A program made the translations under genes and the position numbers. From Deltaproteobacteria bacterium (GTDB lineage: Bacteria; Desulfobacterota; Desulfarculia; Desulfarculales; Desulfarculaceae): 10,067 nucleotides of DNA. The number at the start of each line of letters is the position of its first letter. The stretch's first letter is position 1. The stretch covers positions 1 to 10,067 of the forward strand of contig JAKAGJ010000029.1 of the NCBI GenBank assembly GCA_021815655.1. The letters run 5' to 3'. Shown here piece after piece: positions 1,194 through 9,902 of this stretch. The notes beneath the pieces are model-generated. The model saw only the letters and a list, made by a program, of their open reading frames with translations, made no database searches and was not told the DNA's origin.

Positions 1194-3281
<2,088 letters not shown>

Positions 3282-3290
3282 GTGCCGGAC
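3282..3290 (-). promoter_or_regulatory. Spacer leading from the ribosome binding site to the regulator's TTG start
   Basis: On the minus strand GGGGAGG (complement of about 3291-3297) lies 9 bases before TTG at 3281. This strong Shine-Dalgarno match decides the start. No ATG or GTG in frame lies near the CBS boundary, and a GTC codon at 3288-3290 cannot initiate. Confidence 0.6.
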
Positions 3291-3316
3291 CCTCCCCGGA
3301 ATCGATAGGCAACCCC

Positions 3317-3335
3317 TGGCGGCCAGGCGCCGCCA
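3317..3335. repeat. 7-bp inverted repeat upstream of the regulator gene
   Basis: TGGCGGC (3317-3323) and GCCGCCA (3329-3335) are perfect complements around a 5-base loop. On the minus strand the element lies between the TauE stop codon and the regulator start, in the regulator's 5' leader. No U-run follows on that strand. It could be a weak terminator or attenuator for the transporter transcript, or an operator. Confidence 0.4.
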
Positions 3336-3351
3336 ATATAGTTTTATTGTA
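3335..3351 (-). promoter_or_regulatory. AT-rich patch with -10-like boxes, possible promoter of the regulator
   Basis: The 112-base gap upstream of the regulator contains an AT-rich island in otherwise GC-rich DNA. It holds two hexamers close to the -10 consensus on the minus strand: TACAAT (3351-3346) and TATATT (3340-3335). No good -35 box lies at 16-18 bases from either one. A weak constitutive promoter for the regulator is plausible, since such activators are usually expressed independently of their targets, but the sequence alone does not settle it. Confidence 0.3.
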
Positions 3352-3393
3352 CTATCTTCAGGGTGGGGAACGCGCTCAAGGGCGGGCTCGCGC

Positions 3394-4116
3394 TCACCAG
3401 AGCAGGACCGCCGTGAGCACCAGGAGGCCGTTGACCGCCAGCCTGAAAGCCCGGTTTCCCACCCGGCGAAATGCCCAGCCCCCAGCCACTCCCCCCAGAA
3501 CGACCACCGGCGAATACCAGGCACTGGCCAACAGGCCATCAAGGGTGAACATCCCCGCCGCGCCGTAGATGAAGATCATCAGCACGAACTGGCCGGTGAA
3601 ATACCAGGCCATCAACCCCTTGGCCTGAGCGGGGTCCTCGGTGCGCGCCAGGATATAGACCGCCGCCGGTGGTCCGCCGATGGTGTAGGCCCCCAGAAAC
3701 CAGCCGCTGAGGAAACCGGCCGCGGCGCCCCACCAACGGTTATCCTTGTAGCGTTGGCCCAGCTCGCGTCCCCAGGCCGTCAGGGTGAGCAAGACCGCCC
3801 CCAGGATCAAGACGGCCAGCGCGCGCTTGAGCATCATTTCCGGCAGGTAGTAGAGCAGGAAGGCCCCCAGGGGCAAACCCACGGCGGTGCCATAGAGGAG
3901 ATCGCGCATGTCCGCCCAGCGCACCAAGCTCCGGTATCGCCAGGCCTGGATGCTGAACATGACCAGGCAATAGGGGAACTGGAGCGCCACCGCCGTCTTG
4001 ATGGGCATGAACAGGGCCAGCAGGGGCACCGACACCAGAGCGAAGCCGAAACCGGTGAAGCTCATGGTGAGGGCGCTGAGCAGCAGGATGAGGGCGGTGG
4101 CTAGCTCGTGCGGCAT
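3394..4116 (-). CDS. TauE/SafE-family membrane permease
   Basis: A 240-residue integral membrane protein with about eight hydrophobic segments. It opens with a helix and a glycine/phenylalanine-rich turn ([16 protein letters not shown], residues 18-33) and has a matching second-half segment ([20 protein letters not shown], 133-152). The two-repeat layout and the IGGPP segment fit the TauE/SafE (DUF81) family. Members are proposed to move sulfite, sulfoacetate or other small anions across the inner membrane, often exporting end products of sulfonate breakdown. The ATG at 4116 lies 16 bases inside the end of the DUF1638 gene and has no clear ribosome binding site, so translational coupling is likely. 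Its position downstream of a sulfonate-type ABC importer suggests anion export or counter-transport, which is inference. The family is confident; the substrate is not. Confidence 0.85.
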
Positions 4117-4820
4117 GGACAGACCGGATCGGACGCCGAGGTCCGGCCCGCGACGGCGGTGAACATGTCCTGGCGCAGGGGCTGCCCGGCCTCGACCACC
4201 ATCACGCGGTCATCCTCCTGGCGGGACAGAACCTTCTCCAGCCAGCCCAGGCCGCCTGGCGTCTCCCGGTAGGCCAGGCCGAACAACCTGGCCATGGCCT
4301 GGCCCTGCTCCCGGTGGTGGGGCCGGAACAGGGTCCCCTGGCGGATCAGCGCCACCTCGGTATAGGCCTTGAGCATCTGCCGGCCGCACCACAGGGCGGT
4401 TTCCTCGTCGAAGCGGGCGGCGGTTTCGAAGTATTCGGTGTAGGGAGTCTTGCCGAAGTCCACCCACCCCGGGCTCAGGTAGAAGGTCCCGCCCACATCC
4501 ACGCCGGCGCCCTGGGGCAAGCGTCCCAGCAACAACGGAATGCAGTCGTGCGCCCGGGGCGCCACCAGGCGCACTCGCCGGCTGGCCAGTCCCTCCAGGC
4601 CGCCGCCGCAATAGCCGTAGCCCAGGATCACGGTGCGCGCCTGGGGGTCCTGCTCCAGCTTTTCCAGTTCCTCGCCCACCCGCTGGCGCAGATCATCGGG
4701 GTAGCGGTGCAGGCCCTGGTCGAGGTAGACGGCCTGCCGGTCCTCCACGCCCAGGTGCCGCAGCTCGTGGGCCAGGACCTTGCAGGCCAAGACTCTACAG
4801 TGGGACGGCAGTCTCACCAC
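4101..4820 (-). CDS. DUF1638 family protein
   Basis: A soluble protein of about 239 residues with the signature blocks of DUF1638: GYGYCGGGL (67-75), PRAHDCIPLLLG (88-99) and GTFYLSPGW (111-119). The conserved Cys71 and the His91-Asp92-Cys93 triplet could form a metal or cofactor site, but no activity is established for the family to my knowledge. Members are often reported near corrinoid-dependent methyltransferase genes of the MttB type in methanogens and anaerobic bacteria. No such gene lies in this window. Two in-frame GTG codons (4818-4820 and 4815-4817) follow an AAGGGGGG stretch (complement of 4823-4830); the second has the more usual spacing. It lies 104 bases after ATPase 2, separated by a long inverted repeat, and overlaps TauE by 16 bases, so the two are likely coupled. 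Confidence 0.85.
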   Translation of the reverse strand: MVRLPSHCRVLACKVLAHELRHLGVEDRQAVYLDQGLHRYPDDLRQRVGEELEKLEQDPQARTVILGYGYCGGGLEGLASRRVRLVAPRAHDCIPLLLGRLPQGAGVDVGGTFYLSPGWVDFGKTPYTEYFETAARFDEETALWCGRQMLKAYTEVALIRQGTLFRPHHREQGQAMARLFGLAYRETPGGLGWLEKVLSRQEDDRVMVVEAGQPLRQDMFTAVAGRTSASDPVCPCRTS

Positions 4821-4924: not shown

Positions 4925-5803
4925 CTATTGCCCATGGCCGGCGGGCTCGCTATCGGTCTGGCAACTACCCAGGAGGTTGAAGGCGTTCTTGAGCTTGCCG
5001 AAGGTCTTGGCCCCTTCTTCATAAAGGGCCTCCATGACCTCGCCCTTGATTTGCAGATAACGCGGGCTCGACAGCACGCTCAAGTCCCGGGGCCGCGGCA
5101 GGTCCACCGTCAAGACCTTCTTTATGGTGCCAGGCAGGTTGGTCATGACCAGGATGCGGTCGGCCAGGAACAAGGCCTCCTCGATCTCGGCGGTGATGAA
5201 AAGCATGGTCATGCCCGATTCCTCGTAAAGCCTGACCAGATATTCCTGCATCAGCTCGCGGGTCATGACGTCCAGACCGCGGAAGGGCTCGTCCAGGATC
5301 ATGATCTGGGGCTCGTTGACCAGGGCCCGGCACAGCTCGGCCCGGCGCTGCATGCCGCCGGAAAGCTGGGCGGGATACTTGTCCCTGAAGTCCTTGAGCC
5401 CCACCTTCTCCAAAAGTCCCAGGGCATGTTCCTCGGCCCGCCGGCGGTCCAGAGCCCCGCTCACCTTGGGTCCGAAAACGGCGTTTTGCATCACGGTCAT
5501 CCAGGGCCACAGGGCCGTCTCCTGGAAGACCATCAGACGGTCGCGGCCCGGCCCCTTGATGGGGTGGCCGTTGATGAGGCAGGAGCCGGCGGTGGGCGTG
5601 TCGTAGCCGGCCAGGATGCTGGCCAGGGTGCTCTTGCCGCAGCCGCTGGGGCCAACCAGCACGGTCAGCTTGCCCTCCTCCACCACCAGTGAACAATCCT
5701 TGAGGGCGGCCACCGGAGGTTGGCCGGGCACGCGGTAGACGCGCTCCAGCCCGCTCACCTCGATGCGGCCAGCCTGCTTGATCCCCTTGCCGTTGTCGCC
5801 CAT
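4925..5803 (-). CDS. ABC transporter ATPase 2 (nitrate/sulfonate type) with H-loop His replaced by Ala
   Basis: A 292-residue nucleotide-binding subunit of the NrtCD/SsuB/TauB class that powers import from the cytoplasmic face. Visible motifs: Walker A GPSGCGKST (51-59), Q-loop Gln94 (VFQETALWPW), signature LSGGM (147-151), Walker B IMILDE (167-172) with the catalytic Glu, and D-loop RGLD. The H-loop, normally ITHD, reads ITAE, so the switch histidine is Ala205. It is a paralogue of ATPase 1; both end in a shared VDLPRPRD block and a similar helical tail. The ATG at 5803 follows AAGGGAAAG and lies 33 bases after the permease 2 stop. The missing His would weaken hydrolysis at its own ATP site, so it probably works as a heterodimer with ATPase 1. 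Confidence 0.95.
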   Translation of the reverse strand: MGDNGKGIKQAGRIEVSGLERVYRVPGQPPVAALKDCSLVVEEGKLTVLVGPSGCGKSTLASILAGYDTPTAGSCLINGHPIKGPGRDRLMVFQETALWPWMTVMQNAVFGPKVSGALDRRRAEEHALGLLEKVGLKDFRDKYPAQLSGGMQRRAELCRALVNEPQIMILDEPFRGLDVMTRELMQEYLVRLYEESGMTMLFITAEIEEALFLADRILVMTNLPGTIKKVLTVDLPRPRDLSVLSSPRYLQIKGEVMEALYEEGAKTFGKLKNAFNLLGSCQTDSEPAGHGQ

Positions 5804-5836
5804 CGTCTGTCTTTCCCTTGGTCCGACCAGGGCCGG

Positions 5837-6652
5837 CTAGATTATTTTGCGCCAGGGCATCAGCTTGATGCTGATGAGCTTGACCAGGGCGCTGGAGACG
5901 TAGCCGGCCAAGCCAATGCTTATCATGCCCACGATGACGCCGGGGGTGTGCCCGGCCAGGTAGGCCTCCCAGGTGAGGCGGCCCAGGCCGGCGTTGCCTG
6001 CGATCATCTCGGCGGCGATGACCACGTTCCAGGTGATGCCGATGCCCACCATCATGCCGGTGGCTATGCTGGGGATGGTGGCCGGCAGCACGATGCGCCA
6101 AAAGACCTGGGCCGGCGAGGCCCCGAAGGACACCGCCGAGTAGACCAGCTCCTTGGGGATGGAGGACACTCCGCCCAACACGTTGAGCACGATGGTGAAG
6201 AAGGCGCCGATGAAGGTGATGAAGGCGATGGACAGCTCGTTGGTGGGCCAAAAGAGAATCGACACCGGCACCCACGCCAGGGGCGGAATGGGCCTTAAGA
6301 GCTCGAACAAGGGATAGCTCAGCTCCTTGAAGCTGCGGCTCCAACCCATTCCCAGGCCCAGGGGTATGCCCAACACCTGGGCCGTGGCGAAGCCCCAGAA
6401 CACCCGCTGCGCGCTTTCCGCCCAGCTCTGCCAGTACTTTGGCATCGCCAGGAAGACCCAGAAGGCCTTGGCCACCTCCACGGGGGTGGGGATGACGGTC
6501 ATGAAGGGCAGCGCGCCCATGGAGCTGATCTGCCAGACCAGGAAGAAGCCGGCCACGGCCAGCACCCCGCGCCACAGGCGGGGGTTGGCCAGTGTCCTGC
6601 GCCAGCGCAGGGCCAGGGAGGGCGCGGCCATCGGTGGGGCAGCGGTAGTCAT
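5837..6652 (-). CDS. ABC transporter permease 2 (nitrate/sulfonate/taurine type)
   Basis: A 271-residue inner-membrane permease of the SsuC/TauC/NrtB class (BPD_transp_1 fold) with about six membrane segments. The first lies near residues 28-42 after a short cytoplasmic tail. Family blocks are clear: GIPLGLGMGW (95-104), FELLRPIPPLAWVP (116-129), and the EAA loop that contacts the ATPase (about 173-199, with the invariant Gly177 in SFGAS). The ATG at 6652 has a GAGG ribosome binding site about 7 bases upstream, and the gap to ATPase 1 is 29 bases. It is a clear paralogue of permease 1, sharing RPIPPLAWVP, a MIA(G/A) block and a C-terminal PWRK/AWRQ ending. This points to tandem duplication of a permease-ATPase unit. 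It likely pairs with permease 1 in one transporter. Confidence 0.93.
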   Translation of the reverse strand: MTTAAPPMAAPSLALRWRRTLANPRLWRGVLAVAGFFLVWQISSMGALPFMTVIPTPVEVAKAFWVFLAMPKYWQSWAESAQRVFWGFATAQVLGIPLGLGMGWSRSFKELSYPLFELLRPIPPLAWVPVSILFWPTNELSIAFITFIGAFFTIVLNVLGGVSSIPKELVYSAVSFGASPAQVFWRIVLPATIPSIATGMMVGIGITWNVVIAAEMIAGNAGLGRLTWEAYLAGHTPGVIVGMISIGLAGYVSSALVKLISIKLMPWRKII

Positions 6653-6681
6653 GGATTTTCCTCTTTCATCGTTTCCACGGT

Positions 6682-7566
6682 CTAGGCCATCTCGCGTTCA
6701 CCGGCCTGGAAGGCCTTGACCGCCTCCTCGTGCACCGCCTCCACGGCCTGGGCCTTTAGCCGCATGAACTGCGGCGAGGCCAGCAGGCGGTAGTCGCGGG
6801 GCCGCGGCAGGTCCACCTCTATGGTCATCTTGATATGGCCGGGCCGGGTGGTCATCACCGCCACCTTGTCGGCCAGGAAGATGGACTCCTCCAGGTCGTG
6901 GGTTATGAAGAAGATGGTCTTGCCGGTGGCGTCGTAAAGCTCCAGGAGATACTCGTGGCTGGCGCTCTTGGTGACCGTGTCCATGGCCCGGAAGGGCTCG
7001 TCCAGCAACAGCACCCTGGGGTCGTTGATCAGCGCCCGGATGATCTCCACCCGTCTCTGCATGCCCGAGCTGAGATGGCCCGGATAGCAGGATTCGATGC
7101 CCGACAAGCCCACCCGCGCCATCATCTGGCGGGCACGTTCCTGGGCCTCCTGCTTGCCCAGGGCCTTTTGCACCACCGGTCCGTAGATGACGTTCTCCAG
7201 GACCGTCTTCCAGGGGAACAAGGCCCCCTGCTGGAACACCACCACGCGGTCCGAGCCCGGCCGGGGCTTCACCTCCGTGGTGGCCAGGGGCTGGCCGTCC
7301 AGGAGTATCTGCCCCGTACTCAGGTGGTCAAAGCCCGCCATGATGTTGAGCAGGGTCGACTTGCCGCAGCCGCTAGGCCCCACCACCGCCACGAATTCGC
7401 CGGCGGCTATCTCCAGCGAGCAGCGGTCCAGGGCCACCACGTGCACGCCCTCGGGGTCATATATCTTGCTGACCTCGCGGATGCTCAGGGCCCCGTCCGG
7501 GGCCCGGCAGACCGGCGCCGCCAGGGAAGATTCCATATCCTCTCGTACCGGTTGACTCATGCCCAT
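6682..7566 (-). CDS. ABC transporter ATPase 1 (nitrate/sulfonate type) with altered signature motif
   Basis: A 294-residue nucleotide-binding subunit of the NrtCD/SsuB/TauB class. Motifs: Walker A GPSGCGKST (63-71), Q-loop Gln112 (VFQQGALFPW), signature LSSGM (165-169, where LSGGM or LSGGQ is usual), Walker B VLLLDE (185-190), D-loop RAMD, and an intact H-loop His223 (ITHDLEES). A tail of about 25 residues before the ABC core is longer than usual. The first ATG (7566) and a third-codon ATG (7560) are both possible starts; GGAAAG lies 6 bases before the first. It is 34 bases downstream of permease 1. Apart from the Gly-to-Ser change in the signature it looks fully competent, and it is probably the main hydrolysing partner of ATPase 2. 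Confidence 0.95.
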   Translation of the reverse strand: MGMSQPVREDMESSLAAPVCRAPDGALSIREVSKIYDPEGVHVVALDRCSLEIAAGEFVAVVGPSGCGKSTLLNIMAGFDHLSTGQILLDGQPLATTEVKPRPGSDRVVVFQQGALFPWKTVLENVIYGPVVQKALGKQEAQERARQMMARVGLSGIESCYPGHLSSGMQRRVEIIRALINDPRVLLLDEPFRAMDTVTKSASHEYLLELYDATGKTIFFITHDLEESIFLADKVAVMTTRPGHIKMTIEVDLPRPRDYRLLASPQFMRLKAQAVEAVHEEAVKAFQAGEREMA

Positions 7567-7600
7567 AAGCTGCTTTCCGTTTCCTTGAAGCGGCGCGTGT

Positions 7601-8530
7601 TCAAATCCCCGCCTGCCCGCCGCCGCTCAGTTCGGACTGGCGCCAGGCCATGAGTTTGCGCCCCACCATACGGACCCCGGCGCTACTGGCCCAGCCGATG
7701 ATCCCCAGAGTGACCATGCCGATGATGATGACCGGATAGGCGATAACCGAGTAGCTGTCCCAGATCAGAAAGCCCAGGCCATATTGGGCGGCGATCATCT
7801 CGCCCGCCACCAGCGAGAACCAGGCCGCGCCCATGGATATCTGCAGGCCGGTGAAGATAAAAGGCAAGGCGCCTGGGATCACTACATCGAAGAGGATTTC
7901 CCTGTTGCTGGCTCCCAGGCACCTTGCCGCGCGAAAATAGTTGTCGTCGATGGACTCCACCCCCAAAAGGGTGTTGAGGCTGGTGACGAAGAAAGCCACC
8001 AGGAAGGTGACGAAGATGACCGCGGGCTCGTTGCCGGGCAGGACGAGGATGGCCAGGGGCACCCAAGCCAGGGGCGGGATGGGACGGATCAACTCCACCA
8101 GGGGAAGGGCGTAGTCGTAGAACTTGCGGTTCCAGCCCATCAGGAGCCCCAGGGGGATGCCCAGCACGGTGGCCAGCACGAAGGCGGTGGTGGCGCGGTA
8201 GGTGCTGTAGAGGATGTGGATATAGTAATCGCGGGTATAGATGGAAATGCCGTAGGCCGGGTTGGGGCTGAGCCACTCGCGCAGCACCTCCAGGGGACCT
8301 GGCAGCCGGTTGAACCAGGGCAGCCTGAACACGCTGACCGTCAGGTGCCATAGCCCCAGGAAAATTACGAAGCCCGCCACCGTGCGCAAAAAGGACTTGC
8401 CCGTGACCGTCTTGACCACCTGGGCCGACCAGGAGATTTCGTAAAGCTGAGCCTTCTTCTTTTGTTGCCAGGCCCCCAGGCCCAGCGCCACGGCGGCGAT
8501 AAGCGATACAATAAGGGCTGTTTCCATCAT
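7601..8530 (-). CDS. ABC transporter permease 1 (nitrate/sulfonate/taurine type) with extra N-terminal helix
   Basis: A 309-residue BPD_transp_1 permease. The common core has GIPLGLLMGW (124-133), VELIRPIPPLAWVP (145-158) and an EAA loop (about 200-228, LGAS with invariant Gly206). It is 38 residues longer than permease 2, mainly because of an additional N-terminal hydrophobic segment (about 4-20) followed by a positive KKK stretch before the usual first helix (about 48-66). Two consecutive ATG codons start the frame; GGTGGA lies directly before them. A 128-base gap with a long inverted repeat separates it from the binding-protein gene, while ATPase 1 follows after 34 bases. It likely forms a hetero-oligomeric membrane core with permease 2. 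Confidence 0.93.
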   Translation of the reverse strand: MMETALIVSLIAAVALGLGAWQQKKKAQLYEISWSAQVVKTVTGKSFLRTVAGFVIFLGLWHLTVSVFRLPWFNRLPGPLEVLREWLSPNPAYGISIYTRDYYIHILYSTYRATTAFVLATVLGIPLGLLMGWNRKFYDYALPLVELIRPIPPLAWVPLAILVLPGNEPAVIFVTFLVAFFVTSLNTLLGVESIDDNYFRAARCLGASNREILFDVVIPGALPFIFTGLQISMGAAWFSLVAGEMIAAQYGLGFLIWDSYSVIAYPVIIIGMVTLGIIGWASSAGVRMVGRKLMAWRQSELSGGGQAGI

Positions 8531-8579
8531 TCCACCATCTCGGTCTGGGGGCCGGCCTCCACCGTTGCCGCCTCAGGGA

Positions 8580-8629
8580 CGCCCCGCGTCCCTCCCGGCC
8601 GGGGGGATGCCGATCTGGGACGCGGGGCG
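8580..8629. repeat. 13-bp GC-rich inverted repeat between binding-protein and permease genes
   Basis: CGCCCCGCGTCCC (8580-8592) and GGGACGCGGGGCG (8617-8629) are perfect complements with a 24-base centre. It lies in the 128-base gap after the substrate-binding protein gene. In the minus-strand mRNA it would be a very stable stem-loop, without a U-run. Stem-loops at this place are known from other ABC operons, where they protect the mRNA of the abundant binding protein or limit read-through to the membrane genes. That role here is inference. GGGAC and GTCCC within 8576-8592 also allow a smaller alternative hairpin. Confidence 0.7.
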
Positions 8630-8658
8630 GGGGCAGGCGGGTTGGAGGCCACGTTGAG

Positions 8659-9774
8659 CTACTTTCCGGTGTAGGCGCTCATGGGCCGCGCCTGTATCTC
8701 GGCCACGGGAGCGCTAAGACCCATCTCGGCCAGGGCGGCCTTTACCGGCCCTTCGTTGATGGCGTCCTTGGGCATCTCGCCGGAGTCGATAACCTTGAGC
8801 TTGTGCAGGAACTCGTAGCCGACCCTCATGATGTCCAGCACCCGGGGCGTGAAGGACATTTCACCGATGTACTTGACCTGCTCGCCGCCGATGCCAGCCG
8901 GCATCTTCTCGTAGAGGGCCTTCCACAAGGTCTTCTCGGTGTAGCCCTGGGTCTCCTTCAGCACCATCTCGGCCACGGCCTCGGGCTCCTTCTGCATGAT
9001 CTGCAAGGCCTCGATCTCAGCCTTGATCCAGCCCTTGGCCGCTTCGGGGTGGGCCTGGATGAAGTCTTGGCGCATGATGGTGAAGTTGGCGTCCCACTCG
9101 CCCCAGGGGGCGCCGGTGGCGACGTACTTGCCGTAGCCCTGATCCACCACCTTCTGGGCGTGGGGCTCCCACATGGGGGCGGCGTCGATCTTGCCGGCCT
9201 CGAAGGAGCTGGCGATGACCTCGATGGTCATGTTCAGCCGCTCCTTGGGCTTGATGCCGTTCTTGTCCAAGATCGAATCAATGAAACGATTGGAGCAGGT
9301 GCCCCGGTGGGCGGCCACGATCTTGCCGTTGAGCCACTGCAAGGCCTCCTGAGGGCTCTTGAAGTCTGGCGCGTCCTTGCGCACCACCAAGAGGTTGCAG
9401 TTCTGCCCCAGGCTTATCATGTTGGCGGCCACCAGGCGGATGTCGCCCTGGGCCTTCTTGGTGGTGGCCACCAGTGAGGGCATGTCCCCCATGCAGCCTA
9501 TCTGCATCTTGTCCGCCAGCATGGCGTTGACCATGGGCGGCCCGGTCAGGTGAGCCTCGAACCTGACCGTGCTGCCGGCGGGCAGATACTTCTTCCATAG
9601 CTCGCGCTGCTTGATGACCACGCCGGTCCAGCCGCCCGTCCAATAGGGATGATAACCATAAGTGATATGCGCGGGTCCTTCGCCTTCGGCCAGGGCCGGG
9701 ACCGCTTGGCCCACCAGCAGAGCGGCGGCCAACAGACTCAGCACGGCAATTACACCGCGGAGAGCTTTGGGCAT
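8659..9774 (-). CDS. Periplasmic substrate-binding protein of a nitrate/sulfonate/taurine-type ABC importer
   Basis: A 371-residue solute-binding protein of the NMT1/SsuA/TauA-like class (type II periplasmic binding fold). It has a Sec signal peptide: PKALR n-region, a hydrophobic core at 8-25, and a likely cleavage after ALA at residue 29. No lipobox Cys is seen, so it should be soluble in the periplasm. The mature protein begins ITYGYHPYW and contains segments common in this class: a DMPSLVA block after CMG, a GTCSNRF stretch in the ligand region, and a MWEPHAQ motif. The start at 9774 is chosen for AAAGGAG at 7 bases spacing and for the signal peptide. A longer frame to 9897 would run into the sigma-54 promoter and is rejected. 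It is the only binding protein for two permease-ATPase pairs. The ligand cannot be deduced; sulfonates, taurine-like compounds or other small organic anions are candidates. Confidence 0.92.
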   Translation of the reverse strand: MPKALRGVIAVLSLLAAALLVGQAVPALAEGEGPAHITYGYHPYWTGGWTGVVIKQRELWKKYLPAGSTVRFEAHLTGPPMVNAMLADKMQIGCMGDMPSLVATTKKAQGDIRLVAANMISLGQNCNLLVVRKDAPDFKSPQEALQWLNGKIVAAHRGTCSNRFIDSILDKNGIKPKERLNMTIEVIASSFEAGKIDAAPMWEPHAQKVVDQGYGKYVATGAPWGEWDANFTIMRQDFIQAHPEAAKGWIKAEIEALQIMQKEPEAVAEMVLKETQGYTEKTLWKALYEKMPAGIGGEQVKYIGEMSFTPRVLDIMRVGYEFLHKLKVIDSGEMPKDAINEGPVKAALAEMGLSAPVAEIQARPMSAYTGK

Positions 9775-9781
9775 CTGTTGT

Positions 9782-9788
9782 CTCCTTT
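9782..9788 (-). promoter_or_regulatory. Ribosome binding site of the binding-protein gene
   Basis: AAAGGAG on the minus strand, 7 bases before the ATG at 9774. It is the best Shine-Dalgarno match in the locus and decides the start. Its strength fits the high level of translation expected for a periplasmic binding protein. Confidence 0.8.
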
Positions 9789-9853
9789 TTTGTCTTGGGC
9801 TTGGGGCGCGCCCATGCCGGTGGCAACCGAGGCCCATCCAAATTTTTAGGAAA

Positions 9854-9877
9854 GGCCGACTTCCCTTGCTGTCGGCC
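9854..9877. repeat. 7-bp inverted repeat at the predicted 5' end of the operon mRNA
   Basis: GGCCGAC (9854-9860) and GTCGGCC (9871-9877) are perfect complements around a 10-base loop. The transcription start predicted from the sigma-54 promoter is near 9875-9877, so the hairpin would form the very 5' end of the mRNA, where a stem-loop can protect against decay. It could also be an operator overlapping the start site. Confidence 0.5.
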
Positions 9878-9885
9878 GTATGTTG

Positions 9886-9902
9886 TGCAGCGATCATGCC
9901 AA
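9886..9902 (-). promoter_or_regulatory. Sigma-54 (-24/-12) promoter of the ABC transporter locus
   Basis: The minus strand reads TTGGCATGATCGCTGCA. Against the consensus (Y)TGGCACGNNNNTTGCW it keeps the essential GG (9900-9899) and GC (9888-9887) with exactly 10 bases between them, and differs at two positions. Transcription would start near 9875, giving a leader of about 100 bases before the binding-protein ATG. The sigma-54 activator gene at the far end of the same locus supports the call. Confidence 0.75.

Follow-up and report, generated by a model that had tools for sequence, protein, structure and literature searches.

Motif lesions in the paired ATPases of a putative importer family segregate to one of two predicted ATP sites

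Do the two ATPases of a putative ATP-binding cassette (ABC) importer contribute unequally to ATP hydrolysis? The question is raised by a stretch of DNA of 10,067 nucleotides (hereafter the window) that comprises positions 1 to 10,067 of contig JAKAGJ010000029.1 from a Deltaproteobacteria bacterium within the family Desulfarculaceae (GCA_021815655.1; an assembly of 3.16 Mb in 641 contigs with a completeness of 71%). The window encodes, on the minus strand, a five-gene cassette in the order substrate-binding protein (SBP), permease 1 (P1), ATPase 1 (A1), permease 2 (P2), and ATPase 2 (A2), followed by genes coding for a DUF1638 protein, a TauE/SafE exporter, and a sigma-54 regulator (Table 1). 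Based on sequence comparisons with related loci, the cassette probably specifies an SBP-dependent type I importer in which A1 and A2 form a heterodimer whose two ATP sites differ, one being hydrolytic and the other slow or non-hydrolytic.

One ATP site of an ABC transporter comprises the Walker A and B motifs and the A-, Q-, and H-loops of one ATPase together with the signature motif of its partner (PMC7756269). We denote as site 1 the Walker A/B motifs, Q-loop, and H-loop of A1 combined with the signature of A2, and as site 2 the Walker A/B motifs and H-loop of A2 combined with the signature of A1. The motifs identified were GPSGCGKST, FQQ, LSSGM, LLLDEPFRAMD, and FITHD in A1 and GPSGCGKST, FQE, LSGGM, MILDEPFRGLD, and FITAE in A2. 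A first-pass annotation of the window had described an altered signature beside an intact H-loop His in A1 and an intact signature beside an H-loop Ala in A2, and both descriptions are confirmed by codons and alignment. Ala205 of A2 aligned with His223 of A1 and with the H-loop His of CmpD, NrtD, and NrtC, and in an AlphaFold2 model of A2 (mean pLDDT 87.4) residue 205 is located between a strand (199-204) and a helix (207-213). Foldseek searches with A2 identified NrtD and CmpD chains as the nearest solved structures, with NrtD (8w9m_D) as the top PDB match. The possibility that A1 and A2 are pseudogenes was rejected, since both reading frames are open and A2 models well.

Both departures extend beyond the window. 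The H-loop His was absent in 117 of the 120 best A2 homologs (Ser in 92, Ala in 13, and Thr in 12, including P0010) and present in 3. Likewise, 116 of the 120 best A1 homologs encode a Ser-Ser-Gly (SSG) signature core (LSSGM in 87, ISSGM in 26, and LSSGV in 3), and the remaining four (P0207, P0210, P0213, and P0214), which are known as proteins alone with their partners unseen, encode LSGGM. Both sets include the window's own protein. A sequencing error, which the annotation had named as a way in which its reading could fail, is very unlikely given these sets, and together with the paired loci described below they led us to reject error or local accident as an explanation. Several A1 homologs (P0203, P0204, P0206, P0209, and others) are ~416 residues in length and carry an additional cyclic-nucleotide-binding domain (PF00027), implying that their ATPase activity may be under ligand control.

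We compiled 63 A1/A2 pairs, comprising a first set of 51, a further 4 (L188-L191), and a further 8 (L196, L197, L199-L201, and L208-L210), where repeated places (L107-L110, L198 (= L170), L202-L207, and similar) were counted once. Left out were L005, its repeat L192, and L099 (contig ends before A1), as well as L013 (A2 without A1) and L193-L195 (A1/A2 pair absent). All loci were gathered by A2 similarity and none has an A1 without an A2, such that they are uninformative on lone A1 genes; the related-locus search comprised 26 loci, some of them outside this family. The A1 H-loop His and the A2 LSGGM signature were each present in 63/63 pairs, and the A1 signature was SSG in 61. The A2 H-loop position was occupied by Ser (36 pairs), Thr (12), Ala (9), or His (6). 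Thus, the change from His that the annotation had described stands for 57 of 63 A2 proteins, but the replacement is mostly Ser rather than the Ala observed in the window.

Lesions in both the signature and the H-loop were identified in 55 of the 63 pairs, and in these the proposal that both defects segregate to one composite site holds. Wherever lesions were seen, they fell on the same composite site in all 63 pairs: site 2 has at least one lesion in each of them, and site 1 has none at readable positions (owing to cut genes, the A1 Walker A Lys was unread in 10/63 and the A1 Glu in 1/63). The combination of a normal His with a normal signature in homologous gene order, which the annotation took as contrary evidence, occurred in none of the 63.

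Phylogenetic reconstruction of 245 ATPases resolved A1 (94 tips; support 1.0) and A2 (100 tips; support 0.964) as sister clades (support 0.996). The remaining 51 tips, which are other NitT/TauT-like ATPases, branched outside of A1 and A2; the H-loop His was present in 51/51 and SSG in 0/51, with one encoding STG. This suggests that the lesions are not due to chance, with these controls, mostly drawn from A2 matches, representing near relatives rather than a random sample. In the window's own genome, His was present in 19/19 other aligned ABC ATPases. A D-loop Arg (FR or YR; residues 193-196 of A1 and 175-178 of A2 in the window) is common to both clades, where controls mainly encode Gly or Ala, and may be a mark of the family's dimer interface. 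A further ATPase domain in the window's genome (L053, C495) reads STAYL and is without the His, and another domain there keeps it; loss of the H-loop His in this genome is rare, yet not unique.

The gene order SBP-P1-A1-P2-A2 was observed in 45 of the 63 pairs, 12 more fit it as far as the stretch or contig reaches, and six (L009, L173, L181, L185, L186, and L191) have another or an incomplete order. Within the stretches fetched in a first survey, a same-strand A1 gene was identified beside 51 of 54 A2-type genes; two of the three exceptions are on contigs of 3.1-3.6 kb, and the third is L013. A Mantel test of A1 distances against A2 distances returned r = 0.870, with 0/2000 permutations as high (n = 49, two of the 51 pairs with a cut A1 having been dropped). 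From gene order, shared ancestry, and co-divergence we infer that A1 and A2 assemble as a heterodimer. Across 51 pairs, column entropy summed over 28 motif positions (the A-loop was excluded due to alignment gaps) was ~1.8 bits for site 1 versus 12.2 bits for site 2. Mean entropy per column was 1.45 bits for A2 versus 1.17 bits for A1, indicating that A2 is more variable overall; the signature and D-loop reverse this trend, being invariant in A2 and variable in A1.

We propose that the SBP, P1/P2, and A1/A2 would constitute one importer in which the sister paralogs A1 and A2 form an obligate heterodimer. Site 1, with the A1 Walker A/B motifs, Q-loop, and His and the A2 LSGGM, would be canonical and would hydrolyze ATP in every cycle. 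Site 2, with the A2 Walker A/B motifs, an H-loop Ala, Ser, or Thr, and the A1 SSG, would bind ATP and probably serve as a slow or non-hydrolyzing clamp that holds the ATPases partly engaged, such that a single hydrolysis event could reset the transporter. We infer weakened hydrolysis at site 2 from its motifs and from characterized systems. Replacement of the H-loop His by Ala in NsrF ended hydrolysis of nucleoside triphosphates (PMC7494861); in the exporter PatAB, the H-loop Gln521 of PatA and the SAGQ of PatB, altered at the first signature Gly, meet at one site and the other site is canonical, as predicted here (PMC9541285); and in TAP, ATP stays at the degenerate site during turnover of the consensus site (PMC12422388). 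By analogy with these exporters, site 2 should bind ATP and hydrolyze it slowly or not at all.

Several observations weigh against this interpretation, and the main ground for caution is the catalytic Walker B Glu. A missing catalytic Glu has been termed a hallmark of degenerate sites (PMC7544095), and changes in this residue often accompany H-loop deviations (PMC7756269). Loss of the Glu was not detected in any of the 63 A2 or 62 readable A1 proteins; the usual link is broken in A2, where the His is lost and the Glu kept, and this is the chief difference from these exporters. PatA is a case in point, since Asp490 replaces its catalytic Glu (PMC9541285). If a heterodimer is assumed, lesions in the signature and in the partner's Walker motifs or H-loop do converge on one composite site, as expected of degenerate sites. 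The exporter-like pattern put forward in the annotation is thus retained with respect to segregation but not severity: with the Glu, on which the annotation is silent, kept in both subunits, predicted site 2 is degenerate in a milder sense than the sites of most exporters. The A2 Walker A Lys and Q-loop Gln (each 63/63) are also intact, as is the second signature Gly of A1 (63/63), and with its Glu, Lys, and Gln in place, site 2 could hydrolyze ATP slowly.

Further points against it concern the co-occurrence of the lesions and the evidence for pairing. Co-occurrence of the two lesions fails in eight pairs: six keep the A2 His with an A1 SSG, all of them with Val as the last Walker A residue, and two (L006 and L188) combine an A1 LSGGQ with an A2 Ser, representing natural single-lesion variants. 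This indicates that no single lesion is obligatory. Of the solved proteins most closely related to A1 and A2, NrtC, NrtD, and CmpD encode both an SGG signature core and an H-loop His. The greater overall variability of A2 explains part of the entropy difference between the sites, and the Mantel correlation also reflects shared species history. Lastly, L013 has an A2-type ATPase (5593-6831) and no A1 in the 12.8 kb examined.

The six His-bearing pairs may also be an underestimate, given the large His-bearing A2 subgroup in protein databases. A search with one such protein (P0100) returned His in 106 of the 120 best matches (P0100 counted), and 86 of these 106 have a GKTV Walker A. His-bearing A2 proteins form one group on the A2 tree (107 tips), with a support of just 0.35. 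Parsimony suggests ~9 changes among Ser, Thr, Ala, and His at the A2 H-loop position, and on the A2 tree a non-His ancestor with His regained twice. However, several deep supports are only 0.60-0.85, so this direction of change is tentative. All six readable A1 partners of His-bearing A2 proteins encode SSG. We therefore rejected strict co-evolution of the His-to-Ala and Gly-to-Ser changes, given the size of this subgroup and the SSG of its partners. Reversals may explain the LSGGQ signature in the two A1 proteins that carry it. Put fairly, the family appears to hold one ATP site canonical and to allow any of several lesions in the other.

The alternative that fares best, although we consider it unlikely, is that both sites hydrolyze ATP, with the signature Ser and the H-loop Ser, Thr, or Ala tolerated and the asymmetry amounting to mild kinetic tuning. 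The intact Glu in both ATPases, the A2 Lys and Gln, the second A1 signature Gly, and the six pairs with an A2 His are as this explanation would have it. It does not account for the confinement of lesions to one composite site, with none on the other, across 63 pairs, and it is at odds with the inactivity of the H-loop Ala form of NsrF (PMC7494861) and with the essentiality of the consensus His543 in PatAB (PMC9541285). A less probable explanation is that relaxed selection alone, through drift after duplication, freed site 2 from hydrolysis and left it functionless. Lesions that differ by lineage (Ser, Thr, or Ala in the H-loop; Val, Ala, or Cys in Walker A) are expected under lifted constraint, but drift would also have eroded the A1 Ser (61/63) and the invariant Walker A Lys, Q-loop Gln, and Glu of A2, and the conservation of these residues suggests that ATP binding at site 2 is under selection. 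Separate homodimers of A1 and of A2, or use of alternative permeases, such that both sites within a given complex are alike and half-impaired, are very improbable: two permeases and two ATPases per operon leave the option formally open and L013 has an A2 gene without a nearby A1, but an A2 pair would be without any H-loop His and an A1 pair without any normal signature, the distances of A1 and A2 co-diverge, the two genes stay adjacent, uninterrupted by a permease gene, in the reordered loci L173, L185, and L186, a single SBP gene in the window serves both permeases and both ATPases, and the related NrtC/NrtD and CmpC/CmpD chains co-occur in the same solved entries.

With a heterodimer of unequal sites as the favored reading, its likeness to known systems can be evaluated. 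The TauABC and SsuABC sulfonate importers belong to the same SBP, permease, and ATPase superfamilies and have sulfur-related neighbors, but systems of this type have one ATPase gene, and neither A1 nor A2 reaches the NCBIfam thresholds set for taurine, sulfonate, or nitrate ATPases. Unequal ATP sites in peptide importers and in energy-coupling factor (ECF) transporters provide further leads. The two ATPases of Escherichia coli DppABCDF have been compared with consensus and degenerate sites (PMC12136057). The closest solved relatives of A1 and A2 are the cyanobacterial nitrate and bicarbonate importers NrtBCD and CmpBCD (PDB 8wm7, 8wm8, 8w9m, 9u9z, 9ua0, and 9ua1), which likewise have a NitT/TauT-type fold and two different ATPase chains, although NrtC and CmpC are chains of 665-690 residues whereas A1 and A2 are single-domain. 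TAP is a heterodimeric exporter with a degenerate site (PMC12422388), whereas A1 and A2 belong to an importer. The human exporter ABCG5/G8 combines a signature change with a Walker A change, as does the GKTV subgroup, but its Walker A Lys is replaced by Arg (PMC7756269), whereas the GKTV subgroup keeps the Lys and has Val in place of the last Thr. Unequal opening of the two ATPase sites has been described for the siderophore importer IrtAB, also an importer, but one with an exporter-type fold that was contrasted with degenerate-site transporters (PMC10246721).

A bolder extension, which we advance tentatively as somewhat short of an even proposition, is that these loci represent a widespread subfamily of type I importers that hydrolyze one ATP per cycle, with site 2 held non-hydrolytic by interchangeable lesions despite its Glu. 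Most lineages would have an H-loop Ser, Thr, or Ala, and those with the His would instead carry Val for Thr in Walker A; nearly all would have an SSG signature in the partner. If true, this would define a class of importers with ATP asymmetry built in. Asymmetric ATP sites have been studied mainly in exporters and CFTR. A review of such sites covers exporters (PMC7756269), and we found no description of an asymmetric NitT/TauT-type importer among open-licence papers searched by title and opening of the abstract. Unequal ATP sites are known in ABC transporters; what would be new, as judged from sequence, is their occurrence in an importer with the Glu kept and with interchangeable lesions. A conserved SBP-dependent case would permit a direct test of the number of ATP hydrolyzed per substrate, because sites 1 and 2 differ in natural residues and their key parts are encoded by separate genes. 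Such a case would also allow the contribution of the H-loop His to be told apart from that of the catalytic Glu, two residues that are frequently altered in concert, and the subgroup that keeps the His and alters Walker A would serve as a comparison set.

Table 1. Genes and motif codons of the predicted importer and its associated genes in the window.
Feature	Position	Strand	Evidence or detail
SBP (NMT1/SsuA-like)	8659..9897	-	PF13379 45.6 bits, cut-off 24.7
P1 (BPD_transp_1)	7601..8530	-	PF00528 91.5 bits
A1 (LSSGM, His223, Glu190)	6682..7566	-	PF00005 118.8 bits
P2 (BPD_transp_1)	5837..6652	-	PF00528 94.7 bits
A2 (LSGGM, Ala205, Glu172)	4925..5803	-	PF00005 115.4 bits
DUF1638 protein (associated, outside the transporter, downstream of the cassette)	4101..4820	-	PF07796 118.5 bits
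TauE/SafE-type anion exporter (associated)	3394..4116	-	PF01925 99.8 bits
Sigma-54-dependent regulator with CBS and PAS (associated)	1194..3542	-	PF00158 226.8 bits, PF00571, PF00989
A1 signature 165-LSSGM-169 (predicted site 2)	7060..7074	-	Ser167 codon TCG 7066-7068
A1 catalytic Glu190 codon (predicted site 1)	6997..6999	-	alignment
A1 H-loop His223 codon CAC (predicted site 1)	6898..6900	-	alignment of pairs
A2 signature 147-LSGGM-151 (predicted site 1)	5351..5365	-	alignment of pairs
A2 catalytic Glu172 codon, kept (predicted site 2)	5288..5290	-	alignment of pairs
A2 H-loop Ala205 codon GCC (predicted site 2)	5189..5191	-	alignment

Both ATPases pass the PF00005 cut-off of 25 bits as ABC ATPases, and the PF13379 match together with two PF00528 permeases identifies the cassette as an SBP-dependent type I importer. 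Assignment of A1 and A2 as TauB, SsuB, or NtrC/D was rejected on the basis of NCBIfam scores. A1 (201.2 bits) and A2 (211 bits) did not reach the cut-off of 291.8 for the nitrate ATPase NtrC/D model TIGR01184, nor did they (204.2 and 203.4 bits, respectively) reach the cut-off of 357 for the taurine ATPase model NF008421. Similarly, the SBP scored 107.6 bits against TIGR01728 (cut-off 163.5) and the sigma-54-dependent regulator 440 bits against NF041552 (cut-off 795).

The cargo is perhaps of the organosulfonate type, as judged from neighboring genes (16 chosen flanking genes were scanned, a subset of the neighbors). Besides the window's own TauE/SafE gene, relatives of it adjoin the cassette in L087-L095 and L168. 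In L183, a homolog of the (2S)-3-sulfopropanediol dehydratase HpsG (6848-9349; 1499 bits, cut-off 1000) is encoded directly downstream of A2, which suggests that some members import 2,3-dihydroxypropane-1-sulfonate. An SBP56-family protein that is akin to methanethiol oxidase but below its cut-off follows A2 in L011. Unlike the organosulfur neighbors elsewhere, nitrilase-like genes are located upstream of the SBP gene in L007, L008, and L014. DUF1638 is a predicted helper in cobalamin recharging during glycine betaine demethylation (PMC12478193), and this link to demethylation makes a methylated substrate another option for the window's importer. The DUF1638 protein also adjoins the cassette in L087-L089 and L091-L095; in several relatives, as in the window, its gene separates the importer genes from the TauE gene. 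A small protein with Rieske and cyclic-nucleotide-binding domains is encoded immediately upstream of the SBP gene in L180 (9888-10628).

The cassette was identified in Nitrospirota (L001-L004), Alphaproteobacteria, a betaproteobacterium (L009), Gallionella (L007), and Stutzerimonas (L008), and carriers among named isolates are Stutzerimonas azotifigens DSM 17556 (L008), Hansschlegelia zhihuaiae S 113 (L012), and Xanthobacter tagetidis ATCC 700314 (L006). Profile searches, in which mostly the best 8-24 candidates per genome were scored such that counts are lower bounds, detected A2-type genes in at least 4 of 245 Nitrospirota genomes, at least 7 of 249 genomes from the order of an alphaproteobacterial genome, at least 3 of 274 genomes from the class of the Gallionella locus, and at least 8 of 297 genomes of the window's phylum (the window's genome counted). 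A2-type was assigned here by profile score, and additionally by motifs where a sequence was fetched, as it was for some of the lower-scoring matches. When P0100, a His-type protein, served as the query in one class reached from a Nitrospirota center, at least 13 of 230 genomes matched. The genome of L013 also carries two complete cassettes, L188 and L189. Four diverged copies of the cassette (L011, L171, L172, and L173) are encoded in a single alphaproteobacterial genome (G108), which suggests that they differ in substrate.

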